Shown one piece after another: positions 6,105-56,703 of a stretch of DNA of 64,000 bases. A model generated the notes under the pieces. It did no database searches and was not told where the DNA came from. It worked only from the letters and a program-made list of their open reading frames with translations. The translations under genes and the position numbers were made by a program. Positions within the stretch are counted from its first letter, which is position 1. Every line of letters begins with the position of its first letter. This DNA is from Meandrina meandrites (lineage: Eukaryota; Cnidaria; Anthozoa; Scleractinia; Meandrinidae). The stretch lies in the NCBI GenBank assembly GCA_963693305.1, contig OY855905.1, positions 32,334,750 through 32,398,749 on the forward strand, given 5' to 3'.

Positions 6105-6728
6105 GCTATTGTCCGCTCAGGTGAGCTCTTTTGCTCACAGTTGCTCTTTTGCAAGTCTCGCAGCATATTTGACTCCATCTTTCTGAAGAGCACCAGTTCA
6201 GACGTATTGCAGCTCTACAGTAGTTTGATCTATCGCCTCTACACTGATTTTGAACTAAAAGGAAGAAAACGAAAAGCAAAACAGGTATTAAACATGGCCT
6301 CCGTGCACGTTTGCTCGACACGCGTGACCTATTTGAAAACTCTGATATCATAACGCGAGTCGCGAAAATGGAGTGAGTACCCCGCCCTAAGAGGTCGGGG
6401 AGAAGTTGGGGGTACTGGTTTTGGATAATTTAGCCAAACATTTGGAAAGTGAACAAAATTAAAGAAACATTTTACTGATCGTGGAGCAACGTACGGGTGA
6501 GGTCGTCAACTTAGCATGCCCATCGTGAGTTCCTTTCTATCTTCCATTGTAAGCTCGAATGGCTGAACCATCCGTCTCATTTGAATCGATAGGGGATGCA
6601 AACTTTGAAGGTCTTCGTACAACTACTGGAAGTGCTAGTATATAAAGCTTTTAGAAGTATTACAGCATCCTGGATTCCAGATTTTTTACGTGTACGAAGC
6701 TGATAAACATGTCTGTACGCATATGCTA

Positions 6729-7872: not shown

Positions 7873-7963
<91 letters not shown>

Positions 7964-8378
7964 ATACGAGAACGTACATTCTGAGCTATGATATAGCAAT
8001 GCTTTTTATAAAAATTTTGAACACCGCGCGCCCTCCCCACGCCCCCTTCCTCCCCCCGCAAAAAAAAATCGGATCTGCCCATAACTCCTATTCATTATAC
8101 CCACCTGATAGAGAGAGTTAAATGTAGATAAAAAACGGTTAAAACAAAACTAAGAGGCGAAATTTTCTGAAAAAAAAACCTTTGAACCGTTGCCCGTATA
8201 CAATTGTCAAGTGACCTACCTTTTGAAGTTCCAAGGGTGTGGTCGTTTGAAGGGCCCGTGTTCCTACTTGGTGTACTTCCGTTTCTCAGAGTCCAGTCAA
8301 ATTGATCCAGCGTGGACCCTTGCACGTTTTTCCACTCACAAAACCCGTCCTCAAACGAGCATGACATGTTTGTGAAAA
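6729..8378 (-). CDS. ADAMTS exons 33-35: C-terminal MAM domain
   Basis: Exons 8378-8220, 7848-7592 and 6839-6729. MAM hallmarks: [29 protein letters not shown], and [19 protein letters not shown] just before the stop. The protein ends a few residues after the last MAM cysteine, with no transmembrane segment or GPI signal, so it is predicted to be soluble or matrix-bound. Exon 34 (257 nt) has the same length as MAM1 exons 22+23 combined (167+90). Confidence 0.92.
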
Positions 8379-11300
8379 CTACAGGAAAAAGTGGCCACAT
8401 TTTAGAATGGAAATTTCTTAAAAAACGTCTAACAGGCACCGAATGGCACGAGGCACCGACAGAATCGACGTCAAACGTAACTTAAATTTTTTATAAAGAA
8501 ACATCAGAAATCTAAAATCCGATCTAAAATCTGATTAATTCTACGAAATTTTATAGGAAACACTACTATTTTAGATGGACCGCTTTGTCAAATGGCGCAC
8601 GTTTTAGCTATCCGAAAGTAACGACTCCCCGAAAGTAATGATCCGGCTCCGAAAGAAAGCATAGAAAAAGACTGGTAAATCTTAAATAGAATTTTAGAAA
8701 TACGGTAATGTAATTTTCAATATTTCCTTAACCAACAGAACTTCGCGTTATATTATAAACATTGTAGCTATGTTTCACACTTAACGTACTTGCGTGACCC
8801 CAGAGTAAGAACAGAGTAAGAACGGCGGATAATTTGTGCCACACGGCAACCATCTTTTCAGTTTAAAATGCTATAAACACCAAGATGAACTCACCATCCC
8901 CGTTACAAGGCTCTTTCCTACAAACTTTTCTAGTGGCTGCTTTGGTGTCACGTGGGCAGTTCAACGACAAGGCACCAAGAATATCGCGGCACTCAACTGA
9001 GCGGGACTGGATACTACTTCCACAAGTTTTAGAACACTGCAGCACAAACATAAAGTTACACGTCAGCCGTCGTCATAACGATACATGGGTCGGATACTTT
9101 ATGTTGCACAACAGGCAGAAAACGTTTTTGCCAATGACGTTTCCAACATTTGCAACAGCAACAAGAGAATAAGGCCCCGTCCATACTAATCCGGATAAAT
9201 TTGAAAACGCATCTTTTTTTCTCCGGTTTGGCCAACCGTCCACACTAAAACGGCATTTTCGGTCACCAAAAACGAACTTTTCGAAAACGGTCTCTAAAGT
9301 GGAGAAATTTGAAAACGCCAGCTAGGTGGTGTAGTGTGGACGGCCGAAAACAGAGCTTTTCGAAAACGCTGAGGTCAAATGAATGGCCATGTGATGTCCC
9401 CTTTTGTTTTAATTAGCAGTATAATAGCACTGCACGCGGGTTATAAATCTTGGCACATTTCTTTCGCGGTGTAACGTTCTCTGAGCAACGTAAAATCATT
9501 AAACTGCATTCTGTGAAATTCCCACTTTCTTCTATAAATATTTAGCTGAGGGTAGGTCTGAAATCTATGGATTATCGCAAAGTCCTTAAAAGTGAAATAA
9601 AAATTAGTAGTTTTTTTTATCGACGTTATCCTCGGCGTCGACAAAAACATTATAAATTCACTTATGTGAATTTAGTGCGGGCACTGGTAATAATGTACGC
9701 ATGCTCTGCCATTCATCTAGGGCCGATGCCGAGTTTCATTTTCAAATTTATCCAGATTAGTGTAGACGGTGAAAATATTGAAAACGATATGAAAACGATA
9801 GTGTGGACGGAAAACATTTTATCCGTTTTCGGGGCGAAAACTCCGTTTTCAAATTTATCCGGATTAGTGTGAACGGGGCCTAAATCACCCACCTCTGACC
9901 AGTCACCCACAATCCACTTTGCCGGGCACGGCTCGTCGTTACAAATTTGTTCGGCCTCAGGTTTCTTCGCGGTACAGAGCAATGGTTTGACCTGTTTATC
10001 AGCCAACACGCCTCTGCATTCCACTTCACGAGTTTGGTTTCCACCATTACAAGGCAACGAACAGTCACTCCATTTAGAAACACGCCATTCATACCTGAAT
10101 TTAATGGGAATAATTTTTAGTACTTGTTCTAATTACTTATACCTGATTCACACCAACAAAACATTTTTAGTTAAACCAGGTTTAAGAAAATGAAAATCAG
10201 CAACAGGCAACTGACAGACTAAATTTTACATAGGGTTCAAGCATGCTCTAACTTGTGCTTTCATTGTGCCAAATTTGAAGTCGATAAACATCAGTCAGCA
10301 ACTTCCATGAAGAAAACAATTTTAAACCGTGTTTAACTAAACAACATTTAAACATGTTTAAGCTTTGGTGTGAATGGGGTATTAGACTATGAAGTTAGTT
10401 GGAATATTTTAAACGCGGTCAGCAACCCGAGGTCTCGCGTGTTCGATGATTACCGCAGTTTTCCCGAAGAAAAGGTCTCTGATTATCTACACGTTTACTA
10501 AAACAATAGTTCTTTTGTTCGTCATTTTTAATGTAAAAAAAATCTAAGAGAACCAATTTCCGATGTATTCCACTGATTTCTTGAACTTCCAGTGCAAACG
10601 AATCCATTTCAGCAATCACAGCCAATCACATCAAGCCTCAGGTAACGAAGTCGTCCAGACTGGGTTGGTTACTGGTGGGGAGGGGGAAAGGGGAGGCTTA
10701 CACCACCATTAATCTGTCAATAGTTTGATGATTAACACAGGCGTGTTACTCTGCGTACATACCTCTCACAAGCCGTTAAATTACAAGGTCTTGTCAAAGG
10801 TTGGGGTTTATTGTGTGAAAAGCAATTACTTTCCGCAACCTCTGTGTCATCTTTGTGTTTGCGGCATTTGTATAGGTGTGTTTGAATTCCTAAAAATAAG
10901 AAACAACAACCACAAGAACGTTTTAGCCACCATTGACGTTTTATGACTGGAGCCCAGAGATATATTTGAAGTGGCTAGAAAGATCCTGTTCATCGCAAAA
11001 AAACGCTCAAAAATTCAACTGAGCGACTAAGTTTATTCTACCTTTCACATATTTGGAAAATAATGCATCAAAATTCGCGGAGGAAGAACTGAAGAAATTT
11101 GTCGGTCTAAATAATTAACGAACATGTTTGCTGGAAAACGAGCAGACGTTTTCAAGCGGTAAAATAAATTTCTCTCTTATTTAAAATGTGCAAGTTTTTT
11201 TTTCGATGGTTAAATAGATTGAAAATACTATTCTTTCATCATTCAAGCACAAACCTTCTCCGCACGTCCTGGAGCAGATAGACCACGCGAAATGAGACCA

Positions 11301-14300
11301 ATAATACAGACTGCCATTACTGTTTGGTTTGTAGAAGAGATAACGTAGGTTTATAGGGGCTGGCTTGTCGCTGATCTTAACCTTCATAAAAGATACTTCA
11401 TGCATCAGAATTAAGCGTTTGAATCGCTGTTTATTTATGAAAATTCATGCATCTACCAATGAAAAACAATGTTGAAAGTACAACCAGAAAAACAAGTTCC
11501 ATTTTAATAACTTGATTTCATTGTATAGATCTAGTAAAGGGCCTGTTTATATGGAGAAACGTTGTCTATTGTGGGACGGTTACATTTCATAGCGAAGCAC
11601 CCCGGGAGAGAGAGAGAGAGAGAGCTTTTCAAACTCTTTATAATCAGCCACGAGTCGTGAAGTTGGCTTGATAGTTGGACTGCATGTTTGCATCAACGGA
11701 TCTTGCTAATTAGAGTAATCATAAAATTATATATATGGGAAATGGAAAAGAGACACAGGGTCGAAACTGTTACCTCAGTTAAATTTCAGTTCTGGCTGTA
11801 AGTACCACTGTGGAAAGGGTATTAAGTTCAACAAATTGAAAAAGGCTTGTACTCAGCTGCTTCTCTTAAGATATGGTTAACGCGAATACCCTAGAGCGGA
11901 CGTCTGCGACTTGCACCGGAAGATTTCAAGAACCAAGATGGGTTATTTTTTATTAAATAGTAGTTTTCCCTGCATCCCGACTCTCGCCTGTCTATTAAGG
12001 AGAAGGGGCTCATCGCTAGGTCAAAAGAATTTTAACCCCAGGATAATAAGCAATGGGGCGGTGAAATCCAACAAAATTTCAGTTGCAATATCTACACGGG
12101 TTTACGTAACGATTTACCTTTACTACGATCCTTTCTTTGATGGGACCCAGTGAACTCAGGGCCTCTTTGTGACCCTGTCGCCGGTAGTTGAACTTCGCAC
12201 CAGCAAATTCATATACTGTCGACGTAGACGTCTCGTGGGCGCCATTGAAATACGGTTTCTCTGTTCCCATGCCATCTAGAACTGTCGAACAATAAATTAA
12301 GGTGGCTTACTACAGTATTTAAGAGACTCAAGAGCGCGCGCTACGATTTTCTGCCTGTCGTCAATATTGCTCGCGCGGATAAAAATTGCGCGAGCAACTC
12401 TAAAACAACACAAACAAGTTTCACCACTTAAATCGCGTTAAACCAAATTGAAAGTTCCAAATACTTTCAGAAATGTTTTATTACCTAGGACTGAAAAGAG
12501 TTAAGAGCAGGAAGGTTGATAAATAGCCCGGTAGAGGAGTTCTAATTTTGTCTTTCTTTATCGCACGCGATGCATTGCGTCACACGAGCGCGAGCTAAAT
12601 GAAAAGGCATACGCAATTCGGATCCTGTCGGAGGTTGTGCAAACTTTTTTTTGACATCAAATTACTCAAAAACCTACCGTACGACCCATAATGAAATTTT
12701 CACAAATTATTCATAGGGTTGAAACACGTCTGCGGCCAAAATTTAAGAAAAATCTGTAAGACCGATTTCGAGCTATTTTTAAAATAGCGAAAATACGACA
12801 TTTTCCTATTTTGCGAAAAATCCATCTTACAGATTTTTGTTTATTTTTGCATGAGTGTTCAATCAAAGGTAATTTTTAATTTATGAAATTTTGAGGTAGG
12901 GTCATACGGGTAGATTTTGAGTAAAACGCTATGGAAACTGCTAGTGCCCAGTCCCCTCTTAAGCACTCGGTTGCTTATTTTGGCTATCTTTAGCACCTAT
13001 ATGGTTGGAATGCCGCATATGATGGTTGTATACTGTAACAAACAGTAATTAGAGACAGGGAAAAACATTTTTGAGCATTTAACAAAAAAGTTCAAAGTTG
13101 GGCAATTTTATCCCTCAAAACTGTAGTAAGCCACCTTAAATGTATGGCTGAACAACAGAAACGGCACGTAATGCAAAGCTGCAATGAAGATCTACAACTC
13201 ATCGTAAAATATAATTATTTACGCTTTGCTACAAGCGTACCATCCCTAGGTAAACCATATTATATTGCAAAGAAACGTGTCACCAATCATGGAGAAGAGA
13301 AACAGGGTCGAAACTGGTATCTCAGTTAAATCTCAGTAGTTGTGGCTAGTAATTCTGTGCAATAGGGTATCACGTATCATATATTATTCCTAGCACTAAC
13401 CGAGGAAGTTTGGAGATGAGTCTTCTAACATGATGTTGGTAGCTCCTACTGGACACTCCAGTAGCGTCTGAAGATCTGAAATACCAGTCAAAATATCAAG
13501 AAATTCGTCACAATTCTTTATTGATAAGAAGTTGAAGACTGGAAGACTGTTACAATAAGGCAAGTTAACGTCTTGGATAGTGTTACATATTTTGCAAAGC
13601 TTGCTTGCATAACAACAATAACATAAACTGGTGAATCTCGAGGAAGTACACAAAGCTGGAGACCAAAACTTCTCCCTCCCTTCCCCCTTTAAGCAAGAGA
13701 GGTCCATCTTCACTTTGCCCCTCCCCCACCCCCTAATTTCTGAGCAAGTCTGGATCCGCCATTTTGACCAGTTACAAAAATAATAGCCGACAAACATTAG
13801 AAATAGAAATTGCGTGGCCGATTTTGTTAAGAGTACGTTGTTGAACTGGTTAAGACTTGATTGTGAAGTGTTTACCTTCTTTCGGTAATGTAGTGATAGA
13901 TCCTTTAGTCTGTGAACATAACTTGTTGTTGCCGTTACATACACCACAACTGTCCAGAGCTTTGGCAGATCCAATAACACCGTCGCATCCTACTTGCTAT
14001 AGGGTGGAGATCACAACAATTACAAGTGTTAATCGGGACTTTCGCGTACTTTTTTTCATTGAAAATATGTACAAACAATAATACAAGACTCATGTAATGA
14101 CTTGGTTAAAACTGACAAAATCTGAATGCCCCGAACACTTTTGAAATTAACAAAGTATGCGTAAGGCGATAGAAGTCTGTTTTCAAAGACATGAAATAAA
14201 TTAGGATTTATATCAACTTCTTACATGGGAGCAAAACACACAAAGTAAGGGCAAGGTGAAGTCTGCGTCGACCAAAGTAGAGCTTAATTATCCCGAATTC

Positions 14301-17300
14301 CGTAGCTTTAAGCTACCAGGAGTATTTCTAACCGTTAGGCCACCGTGCCTCCCACACGCAAAGTATTCATGCCGAAATATTTTCTATCACTAGAAAGCAT
14401 TATATATGATATACCTGACATTTCCCTTGGATACAGACATCAAACGAACTATAGTTGTCGTAACAGCGGGTCCCGTTTTCTACATTCATTGCTACGACAT
14501 CTACACTTTTACCGTCGTCGGTTGCTTCACAGAAATGTTCACAAGGATTAAGGGTTATTTCTAAAAACAAAATTAGAAGGTTTCAATATGAAAATTTCCC
14601 ACACAAACCGCTTAAGACAAAACTCACTCAAATTCCCGCGCAAAGTTGTATAATGCAGAAGTTTTCTGTAAGCTGAGCAATGTAATTTGTTAGAATGCGC
14701 ACATAACCTTTTCTGTCGCAGCATTGGTTAAAATTTGGCACGCGGTACACTTTCACTGATGAGCCATCAAGTGATAGAAAGGTTGTCGCACTTTTTTTTA
14801 ACGTAAAGTTTGACCAATCTTAATCGTTATACAACTCGCCTGACCAATCAATGAATGGAATTTAAAAGAATAAGGTTCATTTCATTGTAACACTACTGTA
14901 CATAAAAGTCTTGGAGGATTTTAACGTCAACAAAATTATACTACTAAATCACAATTATATACAGCATTATTAGCTGGAGGTTTTAAAGCTGACCTCCAAA
15001 TCCCATCGTTTTGCAGACACTTATTCTTTAATTCTCAAAAAGATTTCATTTTTGGACTAACAACCGAGTCGCAATGAAAATATTCATTCTTCACGTCAGA
15101 TAGACCACTTGTGGTTTGGCCCTACGCAACTTTTCTGGGTCTAGGCAAAGGACAATGGTTTGTACAAACATACTGTTGTCGATTGCTGTTAATCCCATCA
15201 TTCCCAGGCCACACGGGTTATTTTCAAGTGAGATGTCATCCAAAGCGAAGTCACTGAGGTAGCCATCGCCTCTCACACCTTGGAAAATGAACTGGAAACG
15301 AAATGTAAAGAACAAGGTTTGTCAGGGATAAGCTATTTATGTCACGCAATTTATATGCCTAAACCCTTAGCAGTTGTTTTGAAGACGGAAACTAGTTTAT
15401 GCTTTACCAGCATGCCAGGTTGAACAAGCTGCAGTCAAACTGACCTCATGGGAGTCTGGTTTGCAAAGAGCAGTATTTCTGCGAGTGCTGGGTCTAACAA
15501 AAAAGTCTACGCTGTAGTTTTCTTTTAAAGCAAAAAACCTATTTTGAGTCTTCACAACTGTCAATAACCTGAGGCTTCAACTAAAAATAAACATTAAAAA
15601 CTATTAATTACTGTCGTGATAAACAGCTTTCAGTTGAATGCAAAGATGACTTCAGCTCATGCTCAGTTTTGAAAGAGTCAAGTCAACGACAAAAATCCTT
15701 TCAGGTCTGCTTCAGGGGCGGATCTAGGGGGAGGGTGTAGGGGGTGCGGATCCTCCCCGCTCCTGAGATGACCGGGCGACTTTTTTTACAACTGGTATTC
15801 TGCCAAAAAATTACAAAAAATATATATGTGCACCCCCTCCTAAGAAAAATCCTGGATCCGTCCCTGTACTTTTACCCGTACAATCCCACTGGGCGTAATA
15901 AACTACAGTCTAACACAACAGGATTGTTTTGGTGTTGCTAGCTAGCCTCCGACTGCACAAAGGAAGGTTCAGCCGATTCAGCAAAGGCGTCAACATAGTG
16001 CTAATCCAGCAAAAAAATAAAACATTAACGTTTTAAAGGTTTGCTTATTTTGATTGAAACCGGCCTGAAAATATCAGTTAATAAACGTTGTTTACCCTGT
16101 ACGGCCTCCTGCTAAATATCGTGGCATATCTCAACACCCATCTGTCCCCTCTGTTTCTATTGACACTCCAAACCACTTTCTCTTCCTGTAAAAACAAACA
16201 TGGCAAAGCTTAGCCTTTTCTCCCTTTTACGAAACGAAACACTGTGGATCACTTATCAGAGTAGAAGCTCTCGTTTGTCAGCAGATCAAAACCATCAAAT
16301 AAACCGCAAGCGTTCCCTTGCGAGCGAGGTGCTGTGTCGCGTGCGAACGAAGATTCTTGTATGACAGGACATTATCATCATAAAAGTACTCCTCGAGTTC
16401 CAAATGCATCGGTTTTTTTTATCTAAAAAAGAGTAAGCGCTCATGAGCAATTAAATACTGCATGAGGTGTCTGTTTGTTGTATTTGCATCTTTGGTTTCC
16501 TCCCGTTCGTCGAACCTACTCGGAACAAATTAGTTCATAATTCTGGACGCACTTTTTTCAGAAACGTTTTGGAATTTACTTTGTAACTATCTTTATAGGT
16601 TCAGAAGTTATTTTACCTACCAAACTTGTTTTGACTACCAGCTGAAGTCCACCCATATGAGCGTCATCGCCAAATGCGTGATACCAGAACTTAAGGCATG
16701 CCACGCGCATGCCTATGAACTTGCTGACGAGCCGAGCTTTCCATCCTGGACTTGTGGGTCGAGAAGTCTCCAAAAACATGTAATGACCTATGATAAGAGA
16801 TATGGAAGATAGATTTGAAGACTCATTCAGTTTACAAATGCAGGCTCCTTTGCAAATGTGCGTACTTAATTAAACAGCTGTTTTAGTCGCGAGCTTGGAT
16901 ACAAACGGAAAGCATTTTCCAACATAATCAAAGTAGTCGCTTCACAGTGAATTTTTTCAATCGCTCTCATTCCTGTTGCTAGGTGCACGATCGAGACCAA
17001 TTGTGGCAATTTAGTGAATACCATGCTACTTGGAGAAGTTTTACCGCGCTCCCAGTGCTTAAACAATTCTTCGCCACAAAAGCTGATGTTATGTGCGAAA
17101 TCTGTTAACTAATCCTGACAATGGGCACGAGGCATCTGTTAGGATTGAGAAAATCATTAAAGGGCAATTTATATGGTACGACTTTCTCGCATGCGACAAG
17201 CTTACGCCATGACTACAACACGAATCGCGTCGTGTAAATCAACCTACCACATCCTTACGACAGACACGCGCGCGTGTAAATGGTCCTACGTCATGTCGTA

Positions 17301-20300
17301 GGCCTGTCGTTATCTTGTCGCATGCGAGAAAGTCATACCGTGTAGATCGCCCTTAACGATGCTGACGGCAATAGAACTCCATCAAAACCGACAACGTCTG
17401 TACAATTTGCACTTGTTCTTGTGAAAGCACAGAGTAGATAAACCAGTCAATATATGAGTAGAATAACAACCCATGTTGAGCGTTTTACGGGTGTTGCCCA
17501 CCTTGGGTTCCTTTAGTGTGATCTGTGGAGGGGCCAGTACCAGCTGTAGGAGTACGGCCCCTGTGGCGCTTCCAGTCGTAGTTGTCATGAAGATCATTTG
17601 TCCATCCGCACGTGTCAGTCTCAAAGTCGCAGTCGATGTTTGCTGAGATAGAAGAAAACAAATGGTTTGATTAGGATCCAAAGTGGTCAAGAAAAATGAG
17701 GGGAGAAAGTCTCGGGAGGAAATGTACCATAGCGTATTGCAGAGGTTTTCATGGTTGGAATAGGCCACCATATCAAAAGCTTAATGTATGGTTCATGCAC
17801 GTTTTCTAAGCTGTTAAAGTCCGAAAAGACATCAAACTTAATGAAAAGGGACAATATCAGCTTTGTTTTCGTATACCCGTTGGTAAAACCTGAGGTTCTC
17901 ACCTTTGAAAATATCGTATGAAGACCACTCTCCAGTGATTTCTGGTAACGACAAAGGCCCACGTCTCTTGCATTGTTCATTCCGTGATTGCTCAAATGTT
18001 AACAGCTGACCTGGGCAGTCCTAATGAAAAACGTGAAAAAAAAGTTAATATGAATAATGGCTGAGTCAATCATAAGACCTGTACAACCTCGCTAAGGTCA
18101 AACCCATGTCACTGGCGTGGAAAAGGTTACAGTGTTCAAATCTTCAAGTCTTATCGACAAATCGACTGTTCACAAGTATAGGCGTACATAATCAAACTAC
18201 ATATCACAAATTGCTACGCCCACGGGCCAAATAACTAACATTGATCATAAGCGGGGATGGGTTTAGGGGAAGGGGAGACACAAGGCGCCATTTTATGCAA
18301 ATGAGTTTATCAGGTTATGGACTGAATGTGACGGTGGGACTGGAATATCAGTGCGCGCCACTCATGTCTTAACGTTGCTATGTAGTCTTCAAGCACCCAC
18401 TACACAGCTATCATGACGTTGACAATAAGTAAATACAAGGTTCACACTTACCTTAAAATTGCAAAGTTCAAATTTAATATTCATGCCCTCACAGGGCCTT
18501 CCGTAATCTTTTGGTCTGCATGGATACAGAATATTGTTTCAATTAGACTTGCAACCACATGAGCACAACCGTAAAGAAACTGTATGTGCTTAAGAATCCA
18601 TAATTTGTTGCAAAAAGGCCATTTCTTATTCTGAGTACATAAGGCTATTTCTGATATCCTTTTGCCGTTGTTTCAAAACAAGACCTGGTTGGGCATTGTT
18701 GACTTAAAAATGAGCTGATGAGGTTCACTAGAACTTATTTTGAAACACACAGATTATGATTTCAGTAAAAATGGTTTATCGTCTCCAGACTGACCTCCGG
18801 CTCCAATCCTGATTTGTGTAGTTTTGGTTGAGAAGAGAATGGGTACTAGGAACGTAATGCGCAGCTCGTTAGTTTAACATCCTGTGCGTCACCATTACTA
18901 AAACCCAATCTCTTCTCAACTGATGATCTTCCAAACGACGACTGGGTACGAGTGCAAGTGTGCGTAATGACTTGTAATACTTACACTGGGTTGTTGCACT
19001 TTCTTGTTCGGTATCGAATCCCTACACCACATGACCGTGAACATTCACTTAGCTTACTCCATCCACTCCAGCCACCGTGAACTGGTGTTATTGTCGGTCG
19101 AGGAAGAGGAATAGAGAAATCTTCATCATCCACTGACACGCATCTTCCGAGCCGACACCACTGACGAACACAAAACAAAAACGATGTGAATTAATTTTAG
19201 AAAAAAAAAACTGGACCGCTATACGTGTTAAACCTGCAGCTTGACTGGTTCTGAGTCTTTTCGAGACGTTTAATTATCAGTCTGTCTGTTTCACTGGTTA
19301 GGATCTTCAGTCTAGTGGCTAAATGTTGCCCTTGTTAGATATGAGATATCTACCATCTCAAATCCAATGTTCGCTCGTGGAATAATTGTTGAATATTTAC
19401 CAACATGGATTATGCAGAAGACGTGTATCCTACGGAATTATATTATTTTCTGGGCAATATATCCAGCGTGCAGATGTCTGCTATATTCTCTGCTTCACTT
19501 GGAAAAGACCGTCGTCTCTTTTCCGCGTTAAGTATAAGTTATAGTATATTTTAGTATTTAAATATGTGGTGAGGTAACCTACCTTTTCTACCACACGAGC
19601 GCTACGAGGGCTTATGACCAGAAATGCATGTTTGATATTTTCAGAAACTCGTGAATGGAATATAAAAACAAGTATAAACAATGATTAAATACTTCCCCTA
19701 CCTTATTAACTCCACATTTTGTTCCTTCCAGTGCAGCAGTGCGCCTGGTTTGACAGAAGCGGTTATTATACGTCGAATAAGACAAGCGGCTACACCAGAG
19801 CTCCTTACAAGGGTCACGTTTCATCTGTGAAGTATCAGTACAAAATAATTGCTTCAAACATCCCGGGCGTTCAAGGCGCACGTAGTGGTTTGTAGATGCT
19901 TGTAATCTAGTACATTTCTACGGATACTAATTTTATGGTATTCCACTGAACGAACAGGAAACGATGGTTATTCAATTTTAATTGTCCAAGCCAAAATATA
20001 GCATGAAAACTTCAGGAAAGATTTGAGAACAGCTTCAATGCTCTTCTTGAGCAGGTTTTGTCTCAATGTTCTGAATTGAGTACAGGAGTATCACAAGCAT
20101 AACCACCGTACACTCAACATAAAAATGTTCGTTCCCCAATACTCTCGCCCTTGTTAGTGGTTTTAGGGATGGGCTATTTTATTTAGGGGGGGGGGGGGGG
20201 GGGGGGGGGGCAAAAACAAAAAACGAATTCCAACAAATTTGCACAGCAAAAGTAAAGAAAATAATTCATACACAGCAACCCAAAAGTAAACCGGCAAAGT

Positions 20301-23300
20301 TAAAGGCGGAATAATTCTTGCACAAACACAAGACGGAAAAAACAATTGAGACCAGAAAAATAACGCAATAATTGCTCAATAAAATAGTCCACCACTTAAC
20401 AGTCGGTGTTCTTCTTGTGTGTCACTGAACAACAAGATCACTATGGTTAGTGTTACTTAAAGAAAGCCGCAAGCTAAGACAGTTGTTTTCCTGACTGGAT
20501 CAGTTTTCCTAAACCGCGGAAAAAGATGAGTTAAAATAAAGCCTTACCCCGCTACAGAACCTGGTGTTTTTACCAAAGTCGTGCTGACATTGTTGGTCAA
20601 TGGTGAAAATCTGACCTGGAAGTTTTTTCAAATAAGGAATTTTATTTCTGAATGGAACGTCATCTAAACACCATAGGGCTCTAAAAACAAGATGAAAAAT
20701 AAACAGAAGTGATATTACTCAGACAAAAATCTGACTGGAGGAAGTCTTCCCCACGTTAGACATCTAGCTGCTCGTGTCCTTGGCTGCTAGTCATAGTACC
20801 CAGAGCGAGAAACCCCCCTAGAAACATAATGCCACACAACACGCCACACAGACCGTAATCCATAACACATTTTTGTTTTGCTTTGAGAGAAGAACTAAAA
20901 AAAGCGTATTGTGTGTACAGTTATTTATTTTTTGTTGATAAGCGAGCGCGCGAGAGCGACTCTGCTCGAGAAAATCGAAATCTGTGAGCAAGATTTTCTG
21001 ATTTACAGTCAGCAGAACGAAAGCCAAAAAGACACAAGGGCAATGCAATATTGTTAACAACTTTAGACGTTTTCCTTATCTTTTGACTCACTTTAGTTTC
21101 GATAGAAGATCTCTCCGACTACAAGAAGACCAATAAAACCGGTCAAATCGAGATCGCACCAGAGGCGCCATAATGCTTCCCTTGATGACGTCATTAGAGC
21201 AGTTGTTATTCACTCCGTCGTGTTCCATTCCTAATCTGTGAACAAGAGAAGGAGAACAACGTTTGAGGAATTACTTACGATTCTTGTTTCCTTGAAGTAT
21301 CTCGAAATAAAGTAAAGGTCAAATTATTAGAATTGACTGCGTAGAATTATTCAATAAGGAATCGCAAATGGTGAGCAACATTATAACTAGCTTTCGCTCC
21401 TACTTAAAAATGGCATTGCTTTCTTCTGTTGACAGTTCCCCCCCCGCCCCCCCCCCCCCCCCCCCCAAAAAAAAAAAACTATTTATGCGTGCTGTCCGAT
21501 TAAAAGCAATTTGTAATATAAGCAAACAATTATTAGATGACATCAAAAGCTTGCTACTTGCTACGAACCAGTCACATTCGCGAATTATGTTATAATTATC
21601 GATTTCACTGTCATATGTCCAAAAAGATATTTTGGACAGTGAGTCTTGTAGGTGACATATCTGCCCCAAAGTAGACAAAACAGGCATTTTTTAGTATGCA
21701 GTAATTTTACTACATCAGCCACAGTTCATTCCGATTTCCTGTGCGATGTAATAGAATTTTTTAACCCAAGAGGGGTTTATGTAAGTACCTACTGCCGCGA
21801 AAAACAGGCAAAAAAGAAGACTAATGGATTCTAATTGTGGCCTTTGAAAAGTTTAGAATTAAATACTAACTCAAGTAATGCTTATGACGTCATCAAGTAG
21901 TAGACTTACGTATGTCCCGTCTCGTGAGCGATGATGAATGATGACGTAAATCCATCTTCCTCGTTTAGTGTACAGCTTCGTATTCGGTAGCACATGCCAT
22001 GAACTGGAGCGTACCCTGCAGGTCCAGATTTTGATTGTTTGATTATTTCAAGCATTCACATAATTATATGTAATCAGCCAATCATATTTACAACTCAGTC
22101 ATAAATACCACGTAAATCAAGAAAACTCCCTACCTGATGGTCCGAAGTCCTTTCTGAGAAAAAAATAACATAAACAAAAACATTAACAAAAAAAGCACAT
22201 TAGCCTGTATTAGCAATTAATTGGGATTAGCACGGAGAACGGCGACCTCGTCTGTTGTTTATCAAAGGTCTAAATAAGATCTACCTGAAAATGCCACTGA
22301 ACATACCTTATACTTAACAACAAAAGTAAAAGCATGTTTAACACTGAGAAGCTCTTACCTTGTTATGAAAACAGTTTGGTCATAGTAATCCTTGTTAATT
22401 TTATCAAAGCCTTTGCGTGTCTTGTGGCCCCAGTAGCATACACTTGTTAAACTACTCATCGGTTTACCAGTAATTTTGATTTCTTTCTGAGATAAAAGAT
22501 AATTATACGAGAAAAATAAGACACGATTTTAATGAGACGCGAACTGGGTGTATAAATTGAACAAAATCACGCTTCGCGACTAAAGTCAGGCGGGATTTAA
22601 ACAGGGCGGGGCTTATTTAAGACCGCGGTTTAGAGCTGGTCTTCTTCTAAGACGCGTACTTATTTAGACTTGACGTTCTTGTATAAACGGATCATTGATT
22701 TGTTCGCGTCTTGATTGTTGAGACAATTGCTGTCAGCTTATTCTCGCCGAAAACGCCAAGATGGATGGCAAAAGCCAAGTAAAGAGCGACACAAAGAGCT
22801 CAAAAACCATCTGGAGCTTGCAGTTATATTTTTCACTTCAGTGACAGAGAAACTGCGTTCAGAAGCCGTATCGAAAACAATTTTTGGAACAAAAACAAGT
22901 TAGACTCCTATTTCTGTTACAGTCTCTGTTTCTTCACGAAAGAGCCCACCCTTTCGCCTCTTTGCAATCCTCATTGAGCGGCGGCAACCATGATAAAATG
23001 TTATTTTTTCCGTACTAGCTATGCCATTTCATCATGGAAACCGACATAGAAGCAAAGCTACCCTAAGCCTAGGCATACTGCTGCCCCATTTGAACGAGCT
23101 TTTCGAGTATAAATTTGACGGTATCAGCCAAAACGTTTGTCAGTCAATGGCTCTAACTGGCGTCTAATTTTGTCCGCATCTTATTTAAGCTGCGTCTTAT
23201 TTCGCTCATAAAAATAGTGTTATATACTTGGATTTGACTCTTCTATCAATTTTCAGCGGCCCGCCACCTACGAAACGATGTTCCAAATATGGAGCACACA

Positions 23301-26300
23301 TCACTTGCATAACCACTCAACCCCAGGCCGTCGTATGCACCTGAAACACGCGGTCCTATGATCAAGAACTACTGCTTCTTGTCAAACAACTTCTGGTTTT
23401 ATTTTTTAATATACCTGGATACGTAACACACCGATTACTCAATGTCGATTTTCCCTACATAAACGAAAGCAAATTAAACCAGTCTTACCGGATCTTTCTC
23501 CAGAAGTACAAGTTTTACGACAACAAAGTAAATAGGAGCACCAATGGACTTGTGTTGAAATATTCTGGAGACCTGTGAAAAGCAAACAGAAAGAATTCTA
23601 GCCATAGTGTTGGTGCATTTCCTAATAGATGCTAGACACAAAAAAATTGAATTTTGAGAGTCATACGTAACCTAAACTACTTACAATGTTCATCAAAGTT
23701 AAGATATATTTTTCCGATTTTTCTTTGCCGTGAAACTTCACTACTGAGCTGTCAGCGGTTGCCATCACTTCGATGTACTTCGGCTTCATTTTAAGCATTG
23801 AGGGATATTTAATATCGGGAAAAGAAATTGTACCTGCAAAAAGGATAACACACAACTGTGTTAATTACAGCTAAAGACTGAACTATGTAGCTTTTTATGT
23901 AACTAAGAGAATTAAAACCATTAGCTTGCTGTTAGCGTACGAGGTTTAAGCATCCGCTTTTCTTCAGTTAGTTCCAAACATATCGTTTCTGCAAGCTTCC
24001 GGCTTGTTGAAGAAGTAGAACTCGATTTTAGACATACTGTGTGCACCAATGGGAGAGGTCACCGCGATCTGCAATTTTGCCCAGGTTGCAAATTTGCTTG
24101 AATAGTTTAAAAATATGTATTCGGGCCTTACAGCACAGCTCTAAACTGCGTGACATTTTTTTTAAATTACAAAATGCGCTACTACTAATGCAGATGTGTT
24201 TTTTTTCTCCGTTCTTATTTATGACGACTATTTCCAGAATGCAAAAGAGGAGGAACGTAGCTAAAGGCAGGTTCAATCCTTCCCTCTTTCCTTCGCTCCT
24301 TCGATTCCTGCTAAACATTTTGTGAGTCCGCTGACTAGTTATAACGCTTATGCATATATTGCGAATTCAGTACTGAATCTAGAGCAACTTCGAGGGAGAG
24401 AAACCGTCTTATATTTCATCAGCTATGCACGAGCGCGAAGTGCGTGTTCCAATCAAATTAAGGCTACCTATTTATCTAGTTGGGATTTCGAGTAAGACTT
24501 CGAGTTGGATTTGAATTGAATTAGATTGGATTGGATTTCAAGCACTTTAATTGCAAAATCTTTCTTGGTGAGTCAGAACCAAAATGGTTAAAAACCTGAA
24601 CAAAATAATGTCATGTTGACCATCCTTGTTGTAACGAACATGTTCTTTTGGATTATCACTCATTCTTGTCCAAATGTTTCATTGTTTTCTGTTTTTCTCT
24701 TATACTTCAAATTCTGATACAATGTTTACGATAATTTCATTCACCAGATACAAAATAGTCGTAGACTCAAAGAGACCTTTGATACGTAAATGATATGATA
24801 AGGACGACTATTTGCACTGATATTATAGGCAAATAACCCTATTTGGAAAATAAGCTTAGGCCGCGCGGTATCAGGACCTTGTCTATTTTTGCAGGGTTGT
24901 TCCGGTGTTTTCGGGTTGAAAATTTGAATTTTCTTGCTTCAATTTTCAGGATGGACATCACGTCTGTGAATATTGCTTTACGCGCGGCCCGATTGGCAGT
25001 TTTATCCGCTATTCGCTTCTACTTCGAGTATGTTGCAATTCCGAGGCTAATCATTGCCGTCGATTAACTTCGCTATCTTGCAGCACTTAGCCACCGGCAC
25101 TATTGCAACTAAGGCAACCCTCCCTAGATTGCAAGCACTATTGAAACTTCTCCCAACTCGCTAATGCCCTCGTCATGCTGTCAGGTTGCCCATCCATTCT
25201 ATTGCACTGTGAAATTGTCCTGATATAACACAAAGATACCATTGGCCGTTGTTTGGAAGGGACTCTCGACTTCCAAATCACGTCCAGTTCGTTAGCCAAT
25301 TGAAGTACTTCCGGTAGAAAAGTTCACTGACAACGGAAGTAGATTGCATGGTGTGAACACGTAACCATCATCATTATCAACATTAGGCTAAGATCGTGCA
25401 AACAGTCCCCATTTTACGATAACCAACCTTTGTTTGACACCACTGTTACTTAAAATAGATATTTTAAGCAGTTTATTTAATGTACAACAATACTATCACG
25501 AACTTGGTACAGTGATGAAAACTCGTATCCGATGATACACATCCGATTCCTTCGGCGAATACTCTTTATGTCCATTTACACGAAGTAGTTTACTTGTGTC
25601 AAGGTCTTTGACAAACCATATGTGGCCAGTATACGTGTTCACCGCTATATCCCCCTCCGGTTGAAGATTGTAGAAAAAGACCGTTTCGCCTTCCTCAATG
25701 TAGTACAGCTGTAGAAAACAAAAAACAAAACTTACTGAAGAATGCACTACTGAGCCATGAAAAAAATTGCAACGAACAGATCAAGGAGCCTATCCCAGAG
25801 CGACAAAACACATGTGTGCACCAAGTTTCCGCCAAATCCGCAGCTTATGAAAGTCTCAATTTCCTGAAATCCTCCAATTTCAAGCCAAAAGATAAAAAGG
25901 TACTGAAAAAATAAGTTTTGTGCACCATAGATATATATATATATATATATAAATTATTTGTTATCCACATAGTTTATCAGTTCATAAAATTATTTGGTTT
26001 GTCACTGATCTCTTTATAACGTTTTTCAACAAACGTCTTTGCACATTCTCACTTCAAAGTTCGACGAAACGAAAAAATCGGAAGTGGTGTTTGAGCCCAT
26101 ACACGGGACAAATCAAAGCCGTCAGGGGAGCAAAATAATCATGCTTGAGCTCTTTTCGTTTTTACAATGGGGAAAGTAAATGATTTTCCTTGCAGATTAT
26201 ATATATTTTCTTCAAGATTTCTAGTGGGATGTCAAAACAGTTTCCTCTACTAGTTCATGATCTGCCATATCCTCGTCGGCTGTATGTTTGACAAGGTGAT

Positions 26301-29300
26301 GATGCTCAGGTTGGGAGAAGTTACATGCAGATCACTTCTGGTAACTACAGGCAAGACTAATAACAGTTTGCTAAACATGTTTTTCTTGGACAAGAAGCAA
26401 CTTGATCCGATCAAGTCGAAAAGACATTTTAATAGACTCACCTTCACAAAACGATTTGATTTGTTGATAAATGTTATGTGGCTGTTTGGCTCAGAAGGCT
26501 TTGTGGCTGCAGGAAGCTTGAGTCCAGCTGAAACAAAGCAAAGCTTGAACGTTCGATTGGATGAACAAGCTAAGAATTGTCCGCGAGATTGAAGAAGTTA
26601 TGGCAGACGAGCATGGATTCTCTTGTCTGATGGAACGGTCCCTTGACCAAAATAGATTGTTTGTGAGAGCAAAGGTTTTTGGGACAAGTATTCTCTTCAG
26701 CAATAGACTCTTGAAACGAAAGGATTGATTGTGGCTGTGCAGATTTATGCGAGGCTCTTTCTCTTATATGTGATGATCTCTAAGTGATAGAAAAGTATCT
26801 CATCGGTTCTTCTCTGTAATAGTACTTTTGGTATTTTGCTCGAAGGGATGGGGGATACTCTCCGAAACTTTGCGTGGGGGGGTGCGGCTCACTTCTCGAA
26901 ACTCTAACCCTTATTTCATATATATAATTTTCTTTACCTTTCTCAGACATGACTAAAAATAGATACCCCTTTTTCAGATTTTCAAAAACACAACTGACAT
27001 TATTGGAAATAATGCAATAGAACTAATTAACAGCAATTCCTCAAACACAGATAACATTGGATATCATACTATTCCATAAATGGTATTCGGCGTATATTTC
27101 TCCCCCGACTATTTGCTCCACTTCCATGACAAAATTTTTTAGCTAACAGTTCAAACTCAATGTACAACGACCAAGTTTTTCAATACCCGTCGAGAGCTTC
27201 GAACGTTTATGAATAATGCATGCAAACGCGTTCTTACGTAAAAGGGCAAGAATTGAACGCTACATATTTTTTTTCTATTTTTCATCTCATTGATTCTCGG
27301 TTTTTGGAACCCTTGATAAATCGCTCGTCCTCGTTTTTAACATATCACATCAAAAGTGCAACATGTTGCATGATACTCACGTGGTATGGTGACGTTGGCA
27401 TGGCCTCGCCTTCTGAGTGAGGTACCATGTGGTGGAGTGTAGGCCTTTTTATTGTTGATGAAGAGTTGTTTGCCGGAACCGAAGTCTTTCGCTATCCAGG
27501 TATGACGTGTAAAAGTATCTACGTTCTGCCATTCTCCCGTTTTCAAGACTTGGAAAAATGATTCATTTCCGTAATTGATAAAGTAAAGCTGTATAAAAGA
27601 GAACACGTTGCTTGCATTGATTACGAAGACAATTATTACAATTACAATACAATGTGAGACTAACATGGAGCACGTATCGATAACTATTCAAAGTGATATA
27701 CAAACAAGGTAGTAATGAAATGTTGGTTCTCATCTTATCTATCTTCATTGCACAAGATGAAGCATGATGAAGCATTGTGTTTATTCCTAGTGAAGACAGC
27801 ATAAGATTGTTCTTCTTATGCGCTTATGCTTATGCTTCTTAACCAGAGTAAAAATTAAAAGGCTGATGGATGAGTGGACGAAAAGATTGATTGATTGATT
27901 AATTGTCATGAATGAATGACAGAATGAATGGACAAACGAACGAACGAGTGAATGAATGATTGACTGACTAACTGACTGACTGATTGATTGAGATTGATTG
28001 ATTGATTGATTGATTGACTGATTGACTTACTGATATATTGAGATTGATTGATTGATTGCAATTACTCATTCAGTAATCAATCAATTATTAAATGAATAAC
28101 ACTGGATAGAGTGAAAGGAAAGTGGAACAAGAGGACATGATTAAAGGGGCTTTGCCACGGATTTTAACAGATTTTTTAACAGCCAAAATTCATATTTGTG
28201 GCGTAGGAGACCTAAAAGTAATGGGCCATTTTTATTAACAATTGCTATATATATTAGAGCACTGAAACTGTTAACAAGCACCTTTGGCTGCGGATGGCCT
28301 GGATAGAAATGGATTGCAACTTGAAAAATTAAGGCTAAACTTTTCATGTTTTTTCCGAGTGTCGTCAAAAAAATCAATATTTATAGCTTCAGTTTGATTT
28401 CTATCCACTAATTGAGGTCATGTTCAAAGATAATGTTTTTCATAGGTCAAGTTGCCTACCACTAATTTCAGAACAGTTTAGACCAAAAATCTGCGAAATT
28501 CCTGTGACGTAGCCCCTTTAAATAACATAAGTTATACGCGACATTTAAGAATATCAAGAAAAGTAAGTATTCACCCTGATCGCCCGGCCTGCGTTGTTAC
28601 TGATTGTAATGTAAGAGCTCTCCGAACGAGCGGCTGCGACGTGACTCGATTCTCCGTCAACTATAAAAAAGTTTAGTAATATGCTATAACAGTAATATGT
28701 AATATGAGATCAACAGACAGTGTTTGTTCGTGTACCGATCAACGGCAAATATCACCGAATGTCTCTCCCAGCCAGCTAGACTCGATTACTTCGTCCCATT
28801 TAGGATAATGAGAGGCGTGGAAATAGCATACCTGACTATATAACAAACGAATTTGCGCCCTCTAATTTCACATGAAATTATTCAACTGCGGATTTCTTCT
28901 AAAAGTAAGCTTGGCAGTTTAGAATTTCCTTAATTCCCTCCGAAAGTAAGCCACGAATCAAAAACAACAAAAGGCCATTTGAAAGAAAAATGTCATTTCA
29001 CGGCTTACAAAAATATCATTTTCAATTCACTTTTAAGGACGTGAGCTTTCTCAAAATGCAAATGATTAGTAAGGAGCAATATGGGGGTGTCAACTAGGTG
29101 CGCATTTTTTAATTATGTTGATCGGCACACACCAATGCTTTGCAACAAATGACAGTTGTCGTTAACAGTACTTCATTAGATCTATCACACAATGTAAGAA
29201 TATTTACACTAGTCAATTAAAGCTTTACTCGCGCGTTCCCTAAGCAACCCACATAAGAAATATTTCATGAAGTGATATGATCAAATTCTCCCAAGGTGTA

Positions 29301-32300
29301 CTTTACAAATGTAGGGAGACAAACAAGGAGAATTTCTTTGTTGACACGATCTTTAACCCACGGTTGATAATGATGACGCAACTGTTTGAGCATTTTATTT
29401 TTGGTATGTAATATAAGGGGAAGTCTAGCGTCAGGAGTGTCGTCGATCTTGCCTCAGTGGTGTTTTATTTAGAAGGCAATCACTACACTTTAAAACTCAA
29501 GAAATCTGCAACTGAGGGTTATTCGAATACGAAGGATTCTTTGTTGGCAGGCCATTTACATCGGTCACAGTAACAGTGGTATGTGTGTGTATGTGGCGGG
29601 GGGGGGGGGGGGGGCGAACTTTTTGAAAGCATACTTTAAGAAGACTTGCGCTAATGTGCTTAGGTTGTCGAAACGTCAGTCGCCAACAACAGTCCTTTAC
29701 AGCACTTCCATCACCTGGACGATCGCACTATACGAACTACTGAAACTCCTGGCTTTAGACAGTTTGCTATGTCAAAAATTTACGTGAACGCGCAATACAT
29801 GTAACTAACGAGCAAAAGAGCTGGGTGTAGATTCATTTGTAGATTATTCAATTACTACTACAGACGAATTATCTTGACCTTGGCATGCTGATGTTACCTG
29901 AAATGCCCTTCTGTAATTCTCGCCTTTTTCGAAAAATTGTTGGTACAAAAATACTTGAAAACGCTTGCTTTTATAACAAACTGTCGAAAATTAAGCCTAA
30001 CACAGAAAATTTCTATTCACCTCAAGCCGCGACTTTCAGAAAATGGGAACTCGAAATGATAATACGGAAACTGCTGAGCATCCTTGCCAAGGCTCTCCCT
30101 GAACTTTTTGCATCGATTTTCTTCTGTCAGACCCGAAAATCTACAAAATGGTCGGTTTTACTGTTTGAGTAAATCTTTACTCTTAAAATGCTAGCATTTT
30201 CTATTGTCAATGTTTTTGCCTTGCAAAAATGCTCAAAGCGGATGCTAGAATAATTATGTGCAAAGTTTTGGAGTCATCGGTTTGATTTCGTCTTAGCCGG
30301 ATAAAGCATGTCTAGACATGTCTGGTATGTAGACGTATGAATTCTTTTCTTACACGAATAACTTGTGATCTGTTCCGCTAAATAGCGCACGGTGTGCGGA
30401 CGAACTGCGCGCGCGGCAAATCAGCATCGCATCCGATTATGCCTCATTAATTAATCTTCTTAAAACTGAGTTTATACAAGAGTGTAACTAAAGATATTTA
30501 TACGCTTTTGATCGGTCCCGGACGAATTATCCATCTGAGACGGATGCATGATTCCGCTCTCTAGTATAAATAGTTGGGCCAAATTTAGAAAAAAGTAGAA
30601 ACAACAAATAAATTCTCCTCCAGAAAATTATTTCGTTTATTTATAGTAACGTCGGTGCAATTTTGTTGGTGCAATTTTGAAACTTGGGAGAAATTTAAGA
30701 GGCGGGTGTGTCAACCTTACTTAAACTTAACGTGCTTGCTTTAGGCAAATATTCACTTTAATTAACTGTGTGCGTTAAAAGTGTGCGTTATATTACTAAA
30801 GAAGGCAGCGTGTACTGTCGTAATGCGTCCCTGTCGAACCAAAGCTGGTGCAGCAACGATTTAACTGTTGTGTTATGGATTTTGCCAGGACGTTAAATGT
30901 TTGCGAAAAACTTTTTATAATCATCCCAGGCAAAAATATAATATACCGGGAGGCTACGCCCTGAGGTCGAACACCTTACCCTTTCATGTATCACTTTGAC
31001 AGAAAAGGTAACCTTTTATAGACGTGTGATAGAAAATACTATCCCCTTTTACATGCCTGCAGAAGGGTTACTGTATCTGTTTTCTTAATTTTTTTGCTGG
31101 AAAACCTCTTAAATACTTTAATGAATAGACTGTTCGGTTGGTCTGTTCGAGATACATTGGAACGCCCTCTTTTAAATACCAAAATGACTGTTTTCCCTAC
31201 CCTTTTATATGCTCCAACTCATAAACCCCTCTATATACCAAGAGAAAGGCATATAGAAGGTGCCCCTTTCAGGCGGAATAGTCTGTTACAGGGAGGATCC
31301 CCTCCCTCCCCCTCCCCCTCTCCGCGGCATTATCGCTCAAACGTCTGAAAAGTGAACTTTTCTGATGCTAGCAAACCTTTCAATCCGGTGGGGTAGTCCT
31401 CCATTTTAAGCTCGTCAAACGCCAGGTTGTGTTGTTCTTTGCGTTCCAGGACGGCTTTTCTATACATTAGATGCGGCCTGCCAGGCCTCGTCCAGCCCCG
31501 ATGGACTATCAGGCTTGTATTTAACACGGGCTCGATGTATATTGTGTCACTTCCTAAATCGATGATTCCTGCCTTAGAACAAAGAGAGAGCCGCCGTATG
31601 TTAAGATCTAATAGTTTGTTAAAAAAACTGTTTTGTCGCTAACAAAAACATTCATCAACAGCTCGCTTTTTGATGCCCAGAATGCTGGAAATAGCCTTTC
31701 CAAGCTTCTTCAGGGGGGGGGGGGGGGGGGGGGGGGGGTGGGGCTGGGTGGGAATGACAGTTGGATTCTGTAACACAGTACTTGGCAATGCAGTTTGATT
31801 TTACTTAACTTGTAAAATTCGGCTGACTGAGCCTGTGGAACTTTCAGAGGCTACAATGTAACGCACATGGGTAGAACACAGAATACAATACTTACTAGTC
31901 CATCGCAGTCACTTATGGCCACGCTGGTATGGAATGATTCCGTCTCGCCCACCAGATAACAGTGAACGTCCGTAGACGTCTTTCTCTCAATGGTTCCATC
32001 CTCTTTGTAACGCTCGATCATAAAGTCTGATCCAAAGAGCTTTGTGTTTACTCTAAGAGTCATTTTGATGGTCTTTCCCTTAAATTGGACCTGCAAAAAT
32101 AGAAGTACTTAGAATGTTGAACAGAACGTACCCCTGCCTAGGGTAGTTCAACGTTACTGACAATACGGCCGGCATTCTTCCTTATCCTTGTAGATGCTGA
32201 CACATTTATACGCTAATTTTTCTCACATTCCGTACTGTTCAAGCGTTTTAACCCCGTGTCGACGCTTTTATTTCAGTTAAGACTACCTCGACTCCTTCTC

Positions 32301-35300
32301 TAGGGATAGCTTCTGCCTTAAGCATTAGGACAAAGGACCTTCTAATGCAATCCTGTGCGGGATTACATGCATAGATGTTTTCCTTAAAATCACAACTCCG
32401 CCGCCTCAAAGACATTTTGTGACACTTTTTGCGCTGAGTTTCCACAATCCAAGTTTTGGAACATTCTGCACAAGAACGACATTGTTGATGGACGCGAAGA
32501 AATAAAACTGACCCAGAACAGGCAATTAATAAAATTGTCGAGAGAGGAATACTTGGTGGTATGTAGTCGGCTTAATCCATTACAATTGCAATACCTGATA
32601 GATTATGGGCCCAGCCTCCTCAGTTACACTCCGCCGACGACGTCGATGGCTGGAAAGGGTAGTCACGTGGTTGGTCACCTGACCACGATGATCTAACTCA
32701 GTTGGGTAAGTGATATCGAACTCTGCTAATGAGTTGATCAAGTGATCTGTTGAAATAAAACATAAAATCGCAAAAATGGAACAATGAATGCAACGAAAGC
32801 GTAGCCGGATTTTGGCAACTTTTCGACTACAAATAAACACGAGAAAAGAAAATTCCTCAATAACAGAAAGTCTGTAGAACACAGAGCACGGTGGTTGGAA
32901 AGCCGATTACTCAAGTATGGGATAGACGGAACAAGGTTACGTTAATATAGCGCCAGGGTATTCACGCTCAATTTAAGTTAAAAGATAAGTCCATAGCCTG
33001 TATACAGCCGTCCTGCTCCCATCAAAAAAATCCCTCCCCGATTTTTTTGAGGGGAGCAGGACGGCTGTACACAGGTTACTGAAGTCCCGAACCTACTTTT
33101 AGTAAAATATTGTTGATAAACCTCTTTTAAGCGGCCGCGACCACCTTTTTACCGTCCCGATGAGCGCTTATCTATTGTTTTCACCCCTATTTACCCGGTG
33201 ATATCAATCAATGAAAATCAATCATTGATTGCAATCAATATAATCAATAGTAATCAATAATAATCCATTGATTATTGTTGATTGGTTCAACCAATCAAGA
33301 AAAATCGAGATTCACTCACCAAATCGTCTTAATTACTATTGATTGTTATTGATTTTTATAGATAATCAATAACTGATTACGCAACTTTATGGCACGTGGT
33401 AGCGTGGACGTGCGTCACAAATCACGGGCATATTTATGTGTCAAGGGTATTTTGATTCCCCACCCTTTTTTTGGGCCCGTGCTTTGATAATTCCTTGTAT
33501 TCCCTCTGGGATTCCCACAACACACTTGTTTCCAGACTTCACTTGTTCCAGACTTTTGGAACGCATTGTGAAAGTATCTGTACGCTGTGTAGTTAAAGGC
33601 TACCACGAATGTCCCTTTAAAGTGAATATTGGGCAAACATTTTACGCATTCAAGAAAAGAGGAGAACGAGGGAATGCATTCAAAGTTGCCAATGACTGAA
33701 GAAAGTAGAAATTAACAGTAATAACATGTTCTTGTTTCGAGACAATCAAACGTTTTAGTAACAATTAGTAAGCTTTTAATAGTAAACTGTAGTAAAAATG
33801 CTACAAATTTGAAACATTCGATTTGTAATCGCATAAAGCATAGCAAATAAAGTTTACTGAATGGTTTGTTAATTCATATGGTGCGCTTTATTGAAAATAA
33901 ATAACAAATTTCATAATCAATAAAAATCAATATTAATCAATAATAATCAATAAAAATCGAGACTCACTCAACTTTTAGGCATTGATTTTTATTGATTTCC
34001 AATACCAATCAATTAATTGTTATTGATTATTATTGATTTTATTGATTATAGATTTTCATTGATTGATATCGCCGGGCTATTTAGCGGCTAGCAAGAATGT
34101 AATATACAATGCTTGGTTTTGTTTTCAAGAAGCTTGGACAGACCAGTGTGACGGCTGATAAAATCATTCACACACAGGTTTTTTGTCGTCTTCATTTGAT
34201 TCCGTTGTTCCTTTTCACGCTATTTTGTATTGAAGAAATGTAGCCTTATGCTACTTCCGTTCCACTGTGTAACTGAACTCAAAGCTGACGTTAATCCAGG
34301 TTTAGATTAATTATGATTTGAACAACAGGACACTCGTGAGATTTTGGCGCACGCGAGGCCAAGCTAGGGTCAATCAGTCGAACGGACAATCGTGATGCAA
34401 TTATAATCAGCTTATTAAATTATCAGCGCCGGGCATGAGGAGAGCAGGTGTATACAAAAGAATTAAGTGATATATCGAAGGCTTATTTTACTCGTTCAAC
34501 ACTGCAATGAGCTTTAAAATCAATTGTGCTCGCTTTGGTGTTGATCATTTATCCTTACCGATAAATACACTCTTCTTTTGACGCAAGTTTCAAGGGGTAC
34601 TCCCCTGGGGTATTAGTGTTACAATAAGGCATGTTTACCCACGGCTTAGTAATCAAACTCGCCTTTAAGCGGCACCACATCCTCGGCCGGCGACCAGAAG
34701 TGGCATTGCGAAACGTCGTCTGTGTACACAAGCTACCCAGTCGACTGTTTCTCCGGCACGTTTGCCATAACACATTATAAATAAGAACGTTTCTAACACT
34801 ATTTTGGAAACCTTTTTTTTTCTCGACGTCAATGCACGTTTGGGTAAATCGTTATTAGCAAGAACAAGAAGGCTATTCCTGAAGCTAGGGGACCTGCGCT
34901 TGCGTGAGTGGGGAGGGCGGGGAAGGGCGTGTACATGCGTTGGTGTATAATTACGTAATCCAAGGTAATAACGTCAAAAACTGGGAATTTCTGAAGAAAG
35001 GGGTTTTAGGATCAGTAAAAAGTTTTGAACTTCTTTGGGGACTCAAGTGAAAGGAGTTAAAAATTATGTGACTAGGTAAAAACTGAATATACGACGAATG
35101 ACATACAAGAATGATTTTTTAAGAACATTCCGGCGATGTTATTACTTTTGTTCTGGCTTGTTCGGGAAATATTTTCAAGTGGCGACAATCCATTAACTTC
35201 AACCCGGATATGATCTACTTGAAAATTAATCAACGTCCGTTGGTCGTCAGTTTTCAAAAGCGATGACTGATTACTTCCTGAGACATGAGCGAGTCTCTGT

Positions 35301-56560: not shown

Positions 56561-56564
56561 AATT

Positions 56565-56703
56565 TCGTTTCTTCTGCAATTTGCCTCGCTTTCGTTTCTT
56601 CTGCAATTTGCCTCGCTTTCGTTTCTTCTGCATTTTGCCTCGCTTTCGTTTCTTCTGCATTTTGTCTCGCTTTCGTTTCTTCTGCATTTGCCTCGCTTTC
56701 GTT
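56565..56703. repeat. Minisatellite, about 27-bp unit, five copies
   Basis: Unit CGTTTCTTCTGCAATTTGCCTCGCTTT repeated about five times with small changes. In plus frame it encodes repeats of PRFRFFCIL, which is why a spurious open frame appears. Confidence 0.92.

Follow-up and report, generated by a model that had tools for sequence, protein, structure and literature searches.

In the HIF pathway, VHL is known as the protein that reads hydroxyproline inside cells. Human VHL is also said to bind hydroxylated collagen IV, as Kurban reportedly described in 2008. As described in PMC9528729, hydroxyproline (Hyp) is contacted in the human protein (pVHL) by Trp88, Tyr98, His110 (through its backbone), Ser111, His115 and Trp117; Ser111 and His115 bind the Hyp hydroxyl and Tyr98 binds its carbonyl. 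ADAMTS2, 3 and 14 are procollagen N-propeptidases (PMC4448532, PMC12362006). According to a review, every ADAMTS has one or more convertase sites, and ADAMTS13 needs no removal of the prodomain (PMC4448532); full activity of ADAMTS2 is described as requiring prodomain removal (PMC12362006).

The locus considered here, in a window of 64 000 nucleotides from the coral Meandrina meandrites (the whole stretch of DNA analysed), combines features of both systems. Like ADAMTS2/3/14, the encoded protein has a propeptide, a reprolysin domain with HExGHxLGMEHD, a cysteine-rich region, TSP1, spacer, TSP1 repeats and, by eye, a PLAC-like tail; unlike them, it and its relatives carry one or two VHL copies in place of the furin-containing end of the prodomain, as well as two MAM domains, one of them within the cysteine-rich region. 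In comparison with pVHL, the VHL copies of these proteins (VHL-ADAMTS) are secreted, fused to a protease, present once or twice and devoid of the elongin-binding alpha domain with its BC-box; they also differ by S111T, Y98F and W88Y/F and by having two exons per domain.

Gene structure and linkage of the VHL exons

The gene lies on the minus strand; its start codon is at 39418 and its end at about 6106, a span of 33 kb. Protein P0001 of Oculina patagonica (1589 residues) gave collinear tblastn matches to it over its full length, and the P0001-guided splice model has 1507 residues, is gap-free and is 90.2% identical to P0001. All closed introns of the model are GT-AG; one remained unclosed (about 7590 to 6855), and past it the gene end was taken from tblastn.

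Exon 1 (39347..39418) carries the start codon and the signal peptide; the claim of a signal peptide stands, as judged by eye. It is followed by exon 2 (39164..39200; tblastn and splice model) and by exons 3–5 (31377..32746; individually 32746-32595, 32090-31896 and 31572-31377), which encode the ADAMTS propeptide with a polybasic HRRRRRSV (Pep_M12B_propep, E 1.3e-13). The original prediction had placed two VHL repeats between propeptide and catalytic domain, and its coordinates were correct, on the minus strand: the first repeat, VHL1, consists of exon 6 (28575..28660, entered in phase 1 and left in phase 0) and exon 7 (27381..27588), the second, VHL2, of exon 8 (26442..26527, with the same phases) and exon 9 (25504..25708, with a weak donor). 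Exons 10–15 (21092..23833) encode the zinc metalloprotease (reprolysin, PF01421, E 3.4e-15), with the Zn motif HETGHTLGMEH at residues 570-580. Downstream are exons 16–20 (17903..20680; disintegrin/cysteine-rich part and central TSP1, PF17771 and PF00090), exons 21–24 (15174..17642; MAM domain 1, PF00629, residues 832-987), exons 25–32 (8895..14560; rest of the cysteine-rich region, spacer and further TSP1 repeats, PF19236, PF05986 and PF19030) and the last exons (6106..8378; tblastn with P0001), which hold MAM domain 2, a second PF00629 stretch, and the cysteine-rich PLAC-like tail, the latter assigned by eye.

The Pfam order is propeptide, two VHL beta, reprolysin, cysteine-rich, TSP1, MAM, cysteine-rich rest, spacer, TSP1 repeats and MAM; MAM domain 1 sits between the central TSP1 and the remaining ADAMTS cysteine-rich region. 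With an M12B propeptide, a reprolysin domain containing HExxHxxGxxH, a cysteine-rich region, TSP1 and a spacer, the protein is an ADAMTS, in agreement with the predicted context of the repeats.

Two candidate exons between exons 5 and 6 were rejected, one at 30123-30021 and one, with a furin-like RKRR, at 29953-29898. The second served only to restore the phase that the first had upset, and the homologues run directly from exon 5 to exon 6; the P0001-guided model does not contain them either.

The linkage of the VHL exons to the protease had been predicted from splice-phase continuity. The phases are indeed continuous through exons 5–10 (1-0-1-0-1), with GT-AG at each junction; the donors of exon 9 (CCAA^GTTCGT) and exon 5 (GTTTGC) are weak. 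Could exons 6–9 be a separate gene, or could transcripts stop after exon 9? Besides the weak exon 9 donor, one may point to an in-frame stop codon a few bases past it, inside the intron (25496-25503), to P0125 and P0126, short database proteins of other corals or relatives, whose ends coincide with this stop, and to a 324-residue Actinia entry that stops just after VHL1. Against such an artefact of the gene model, the VHL region is joined to the protease in 12 related proteins, which answers the worry about a separate gene: nine continue through the same exon 5–10 joins and three have one VHL there. Moreover, five of the twelve are encoded on contigs of 4834-7103 bases (proteins of 1441-1590 residues), too short for such introns; since the gene spans 33 kb here, we infer that these contigs are transcripts. 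We therefore regard an artefact as very improbable. A truncated isoform is possible; if the intron after exon 9 were retained, the product would be a secreted propeptide-VHL-VHL protein that lacks the protease.

VHL identity and the hydroxyproline pocket

A Pfam search and a superposition on VHL had been proposed as checks of the VHL assignment, and both spoke in its favor. PF01847 (VHL beta) matched the VHL1–VHL2 pair with E 5.7e-18 (65.2 bits) and the single repeats with E 4e-7 and 1.1e-9 (30.4 and 38.6 bits), each exceeding the curated cut-off (21 bits). A profile built on the VHL regions from ten relatives, eight of them tandem and two single, and run against PDB retrieved 24 distinct sequences at E <= 0.001; all were VHL, with a best value of 2.5e-9. 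Structure models were built from the Oculina relative with 10 rows (P0007 left out) and with 7 rows; for the second repeat of this relative the predicted model has a structural match to the VHL beta-sandwich. The match to human VHL ends at 156, and neither Cys nor a BC-box ([STP]LxxxCxxx(hydrophobic)) occurs in the VHL region of any of 11 proteins. Judging by sequence, the elongin-binding alpha domain is absent, as predicted, and the region would not class as an E3 receptor of pVHL type. The tandem in the window has three N-glycosylation sequons and no Cys, which fits a secreted domain.

The claimed ungapped alignment to human 87-117 needed a small correction: both repeats fit 88-117, with one residue missing in the loop after 88. 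In each domain, the intron lies between the equivalents of human residues 85 and 86; the intron splitting VHL1 contains a GATT-type tandem repeat (27949-28058).

The pocket residues corresponding to human W88, Y98, S111, H115 and W117 are encoded, on the minus strand, in exon 7 for VHL1 (F249, 27582-27580; F258, 27555-27553; T271, 27516-27514; H275, 27504-27502; W277, 27498-27496) and in exon 9 for VHL2 (Y347, 25702-25700; F356, 25675-25673; T369, 25636-25634; H373, 25624-25622; W375, 25618-25616). Thus, the window has F/F/T/H/W in VHL1 and Y/F/T/H/W in VHL2, with two of the five positions identical to human VHL and three occupied by similar substitutes. As far as sequence tells, the chemistry of the hydroxyl-binding pair (position 111 and His115) is kept, and each domain has an aromatic cage together with a hydroxyl at 111, His115 and Trp117. 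The left-hand-side contacts N67 and R69 are, by eye, not kept.

In proteins P0001-P0011, positions 98, 111, 115 and 117 of VHL2 (or of the single VHL) are F/T/H/W in all 11; at position 88, ten have Y and one has W. The VHL1 copies of nine proteins likewise have F/T/H/W in 9/9, with Y at position 88 in eight and F in one. Four of the five pocket positions fall within the 15 invariant positions of 82 in VHL2 (P 0.003 for at least four of five being invariant) and within the 14 of 83 in VHL1 (P 0.002, computed likewise), where both P values treat core and surface alike and assume interchangeable positions, an assumption that does not hold for core residues.

Distribution among anthozoans and relation to ADAMTS2/3/14

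A search with a 946-residue query (it still held the two rejected exons; the VHL and protease parts were unaffected) returned 12 proteins, 11 of them with PF01847 and ADAMTS domains; the twelfth was a cricket papilin without this combination. With Dendronephthya, added by a search with the protease region, there are twelve VHL-ADAMTS, among them proteins of Oculina, Porites, Acropora, Exaiptasia, Actinostola, Paramuricea and Dendronephthya. Seven of the twelve are assigned to anthozoans and the other five fall among them in the tree described below. Identity to the 946-residue query was 44-85% among the named hexacorals; for Paramuricea it was 42%, across 63% of the query. When only the VHL regions served as query, a protein search that covers proteins of about 110-350 residues gave 12 matches: the 324-residue Actinia ADAMTS entry and 11 short pieces belonging, by eye, to the same family. 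The propeptide-VHL-protease architecture is conserved in Anthozoa, in corals and sea anemones. The octocoral group (P0010, P0011 and P0017) has one VHL and the hexacoral group two; either a duplication in hexacorals or a loss in octocorals could account for this.

Databases already contain these proteins together with their PF01847 assignments; source names among the matches listed are ADAMTS2, 3, 14, hypothetical or none. Literature searches found no paper discussing VHL domains in ADAMTS, the looser searches being judged from their best matches; those for PF01847 led to a Toxoplasma kinase study and to none on VHL-ADAMTS. The architecture may already be drawn in an eLife article (PMC12549020) that has a figure supplement surveying Nematostella metalloproteases; the accessible text of the article contains neither VHL nor Hippel, and ADAMTS once.

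With P0001 residues 425-860 as query, 904 proteins passed 1e-30. The best 120 of the 904 comprised the 12 VHL-ADAMTS (the 12 with PF01847, seven bearing anthozoan names), four TSP1-rich proteins of a different kind and 104 others that lack PF01847; among these matches listed, the 104 read as ADAMTS2, 3 or 14 wherever a number was legible. PF00629 (MAM) was present in all 12 VHL-ADAMTS and, by reading, in none of the 104 other ADAMTS-type matches listed. We built a quick tree of 28 rows: the 12 VHL-ADAMTS, 12 chosen from the 104 and four PDB chains; papilin P0012, being without the motif, was dropped. The VHL group (SH-aLRT 91) joined ADAMTS2/3/14 (98) as against ADAMTS1/4/5/13, the only ADAMTS outside 2/3/14 in the tree; the three octocoral rows (support 100) were separate from the nine hexacoral rows (99). 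For the tree as a whole, the program warned of long branches. Among the sequences compared, in search and tree, the nearest bilaterian relatives are ADAMTS2/3/14.

In bilaterians, R-x-[KR]-R starts 16-19 residues before SVVxFHG in all eight sequences parsed (nine were tried). Between the VHL region and the protease this pattern was found in none of the 12 VHL-ADAMTS; two octocoral proteins have it inside the VHL domain. A polybasic stretch near the propeptide start is present in 10 of the 12, and the remaining two sequences begin after that stretch. With no furin site between VHL and protease, the catalytic domain should keep its VHL domains attached.

Possible roles of the VHL pair

We propose, at roughly even chances, that the coral protein is a secreted protease of ADAMTS2/3/14 type whose VHL beta pair binds Hyp in a matrix protein and docks or positions the enzyme. 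Two VHL beta domains would replace the end of the prodomain, furin site included, and remain joined to the catalytic domain; the pair would bind 4-hydroxyproline, either in collagen or in some other hydroxylated protein of the matrix, and, once bound, would dock or position the protease. Two pockets could give avidity for repetitive Gly-X-Hyp sequence. What favors this reading is the VHL profile and fold, the kept pocket residues, the kinship with ADAMTS2/3/14, which cut procollagen, the collagen IV binding reported for human VHL, and the sequons and lack of Cys that suit a secreted domain. Counting against it, Y98F loses the phenol that in human VHL hydrogen-bonds the Hyp carbonyl, a single protein retains W88 while the others have Y or F, and N67 and R69 are, by eye, not kept; also, the invariant T/H/W could serve folding rather than binding, and Hyp in a triple helix may be out of reach for a pocket that takes an extended peptide.

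The chief rival, which we hold to be rather unlikely, is that the VHL repeats are a substitute prodomain that folds, chaperones or inhibits the catalytic domain in cis with no Hyp binding, the pocket residues being kept for stability or internal contact. The repeats do sit where the C-terminal prodomain and furin site would be, and ADAMTS prodomains are described as aiding folding (PMC12362006); however, the conserved residues match those with which VHL contacts its ligand, and exons 6–9 could be skipped without a change of frame. A model of 615 residues covering prodomain, VHL pair and protease had a mean pLDDT of 50, too poor to place VHL relative to the active site or to tell whether they touch. 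Slightly less probable still is that the repeats are matrix-binding modules for a ligand other than Hyp. Such folds are commonly re-used for other ligands, which speaks for this reading, and so do Y98F and W88Y, which alter the Hyp site; the hydroxyl at 111 and His115 are, on the other hand, invariant in the hexacoral and octocoral proteins compared.

Returning to Hyp binding, one could speculate, somewhat more tentatively than for the docking role itself, that VHL was recruited to read prolyl hydroxylation outside the cell, in stem Anthozoa or earlier, so that the protease would sense Hyp in its substrate and couple oxygen- and ascorbate-dependent collagen hydroxylation to maturation of the matrix. 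If true, the module that couples oxygen to HIF inside cells would also link collagen hydroxylation to the matrix outside. A conserved, secreted VHL fused to a relative of collagen-processing enzymes makes extracellular Hyp reading of VHL type directly testable; VHL-ADAMTS may also bear on the origin of the VHL module and would offer a new means by which an ADAMTS is targeted and matures with no conventional furin cut.

Elsewhere in the window, a 506-residue open frame at 42691-44208 (plus strand) has reverse transcriptase (PF00078) and GIY-YIG (PF01541) domains, a pair that we take to be as in Penelope-like elements. A MitoNEET_N domain (PF10660, E 4.3e-17) at 1242-1637 (plus strand) presumably belongs to a CISD-type gene. 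Two further repeats are an AAAT array (7870-7966) and one with a 27-base unit (56563-56703).
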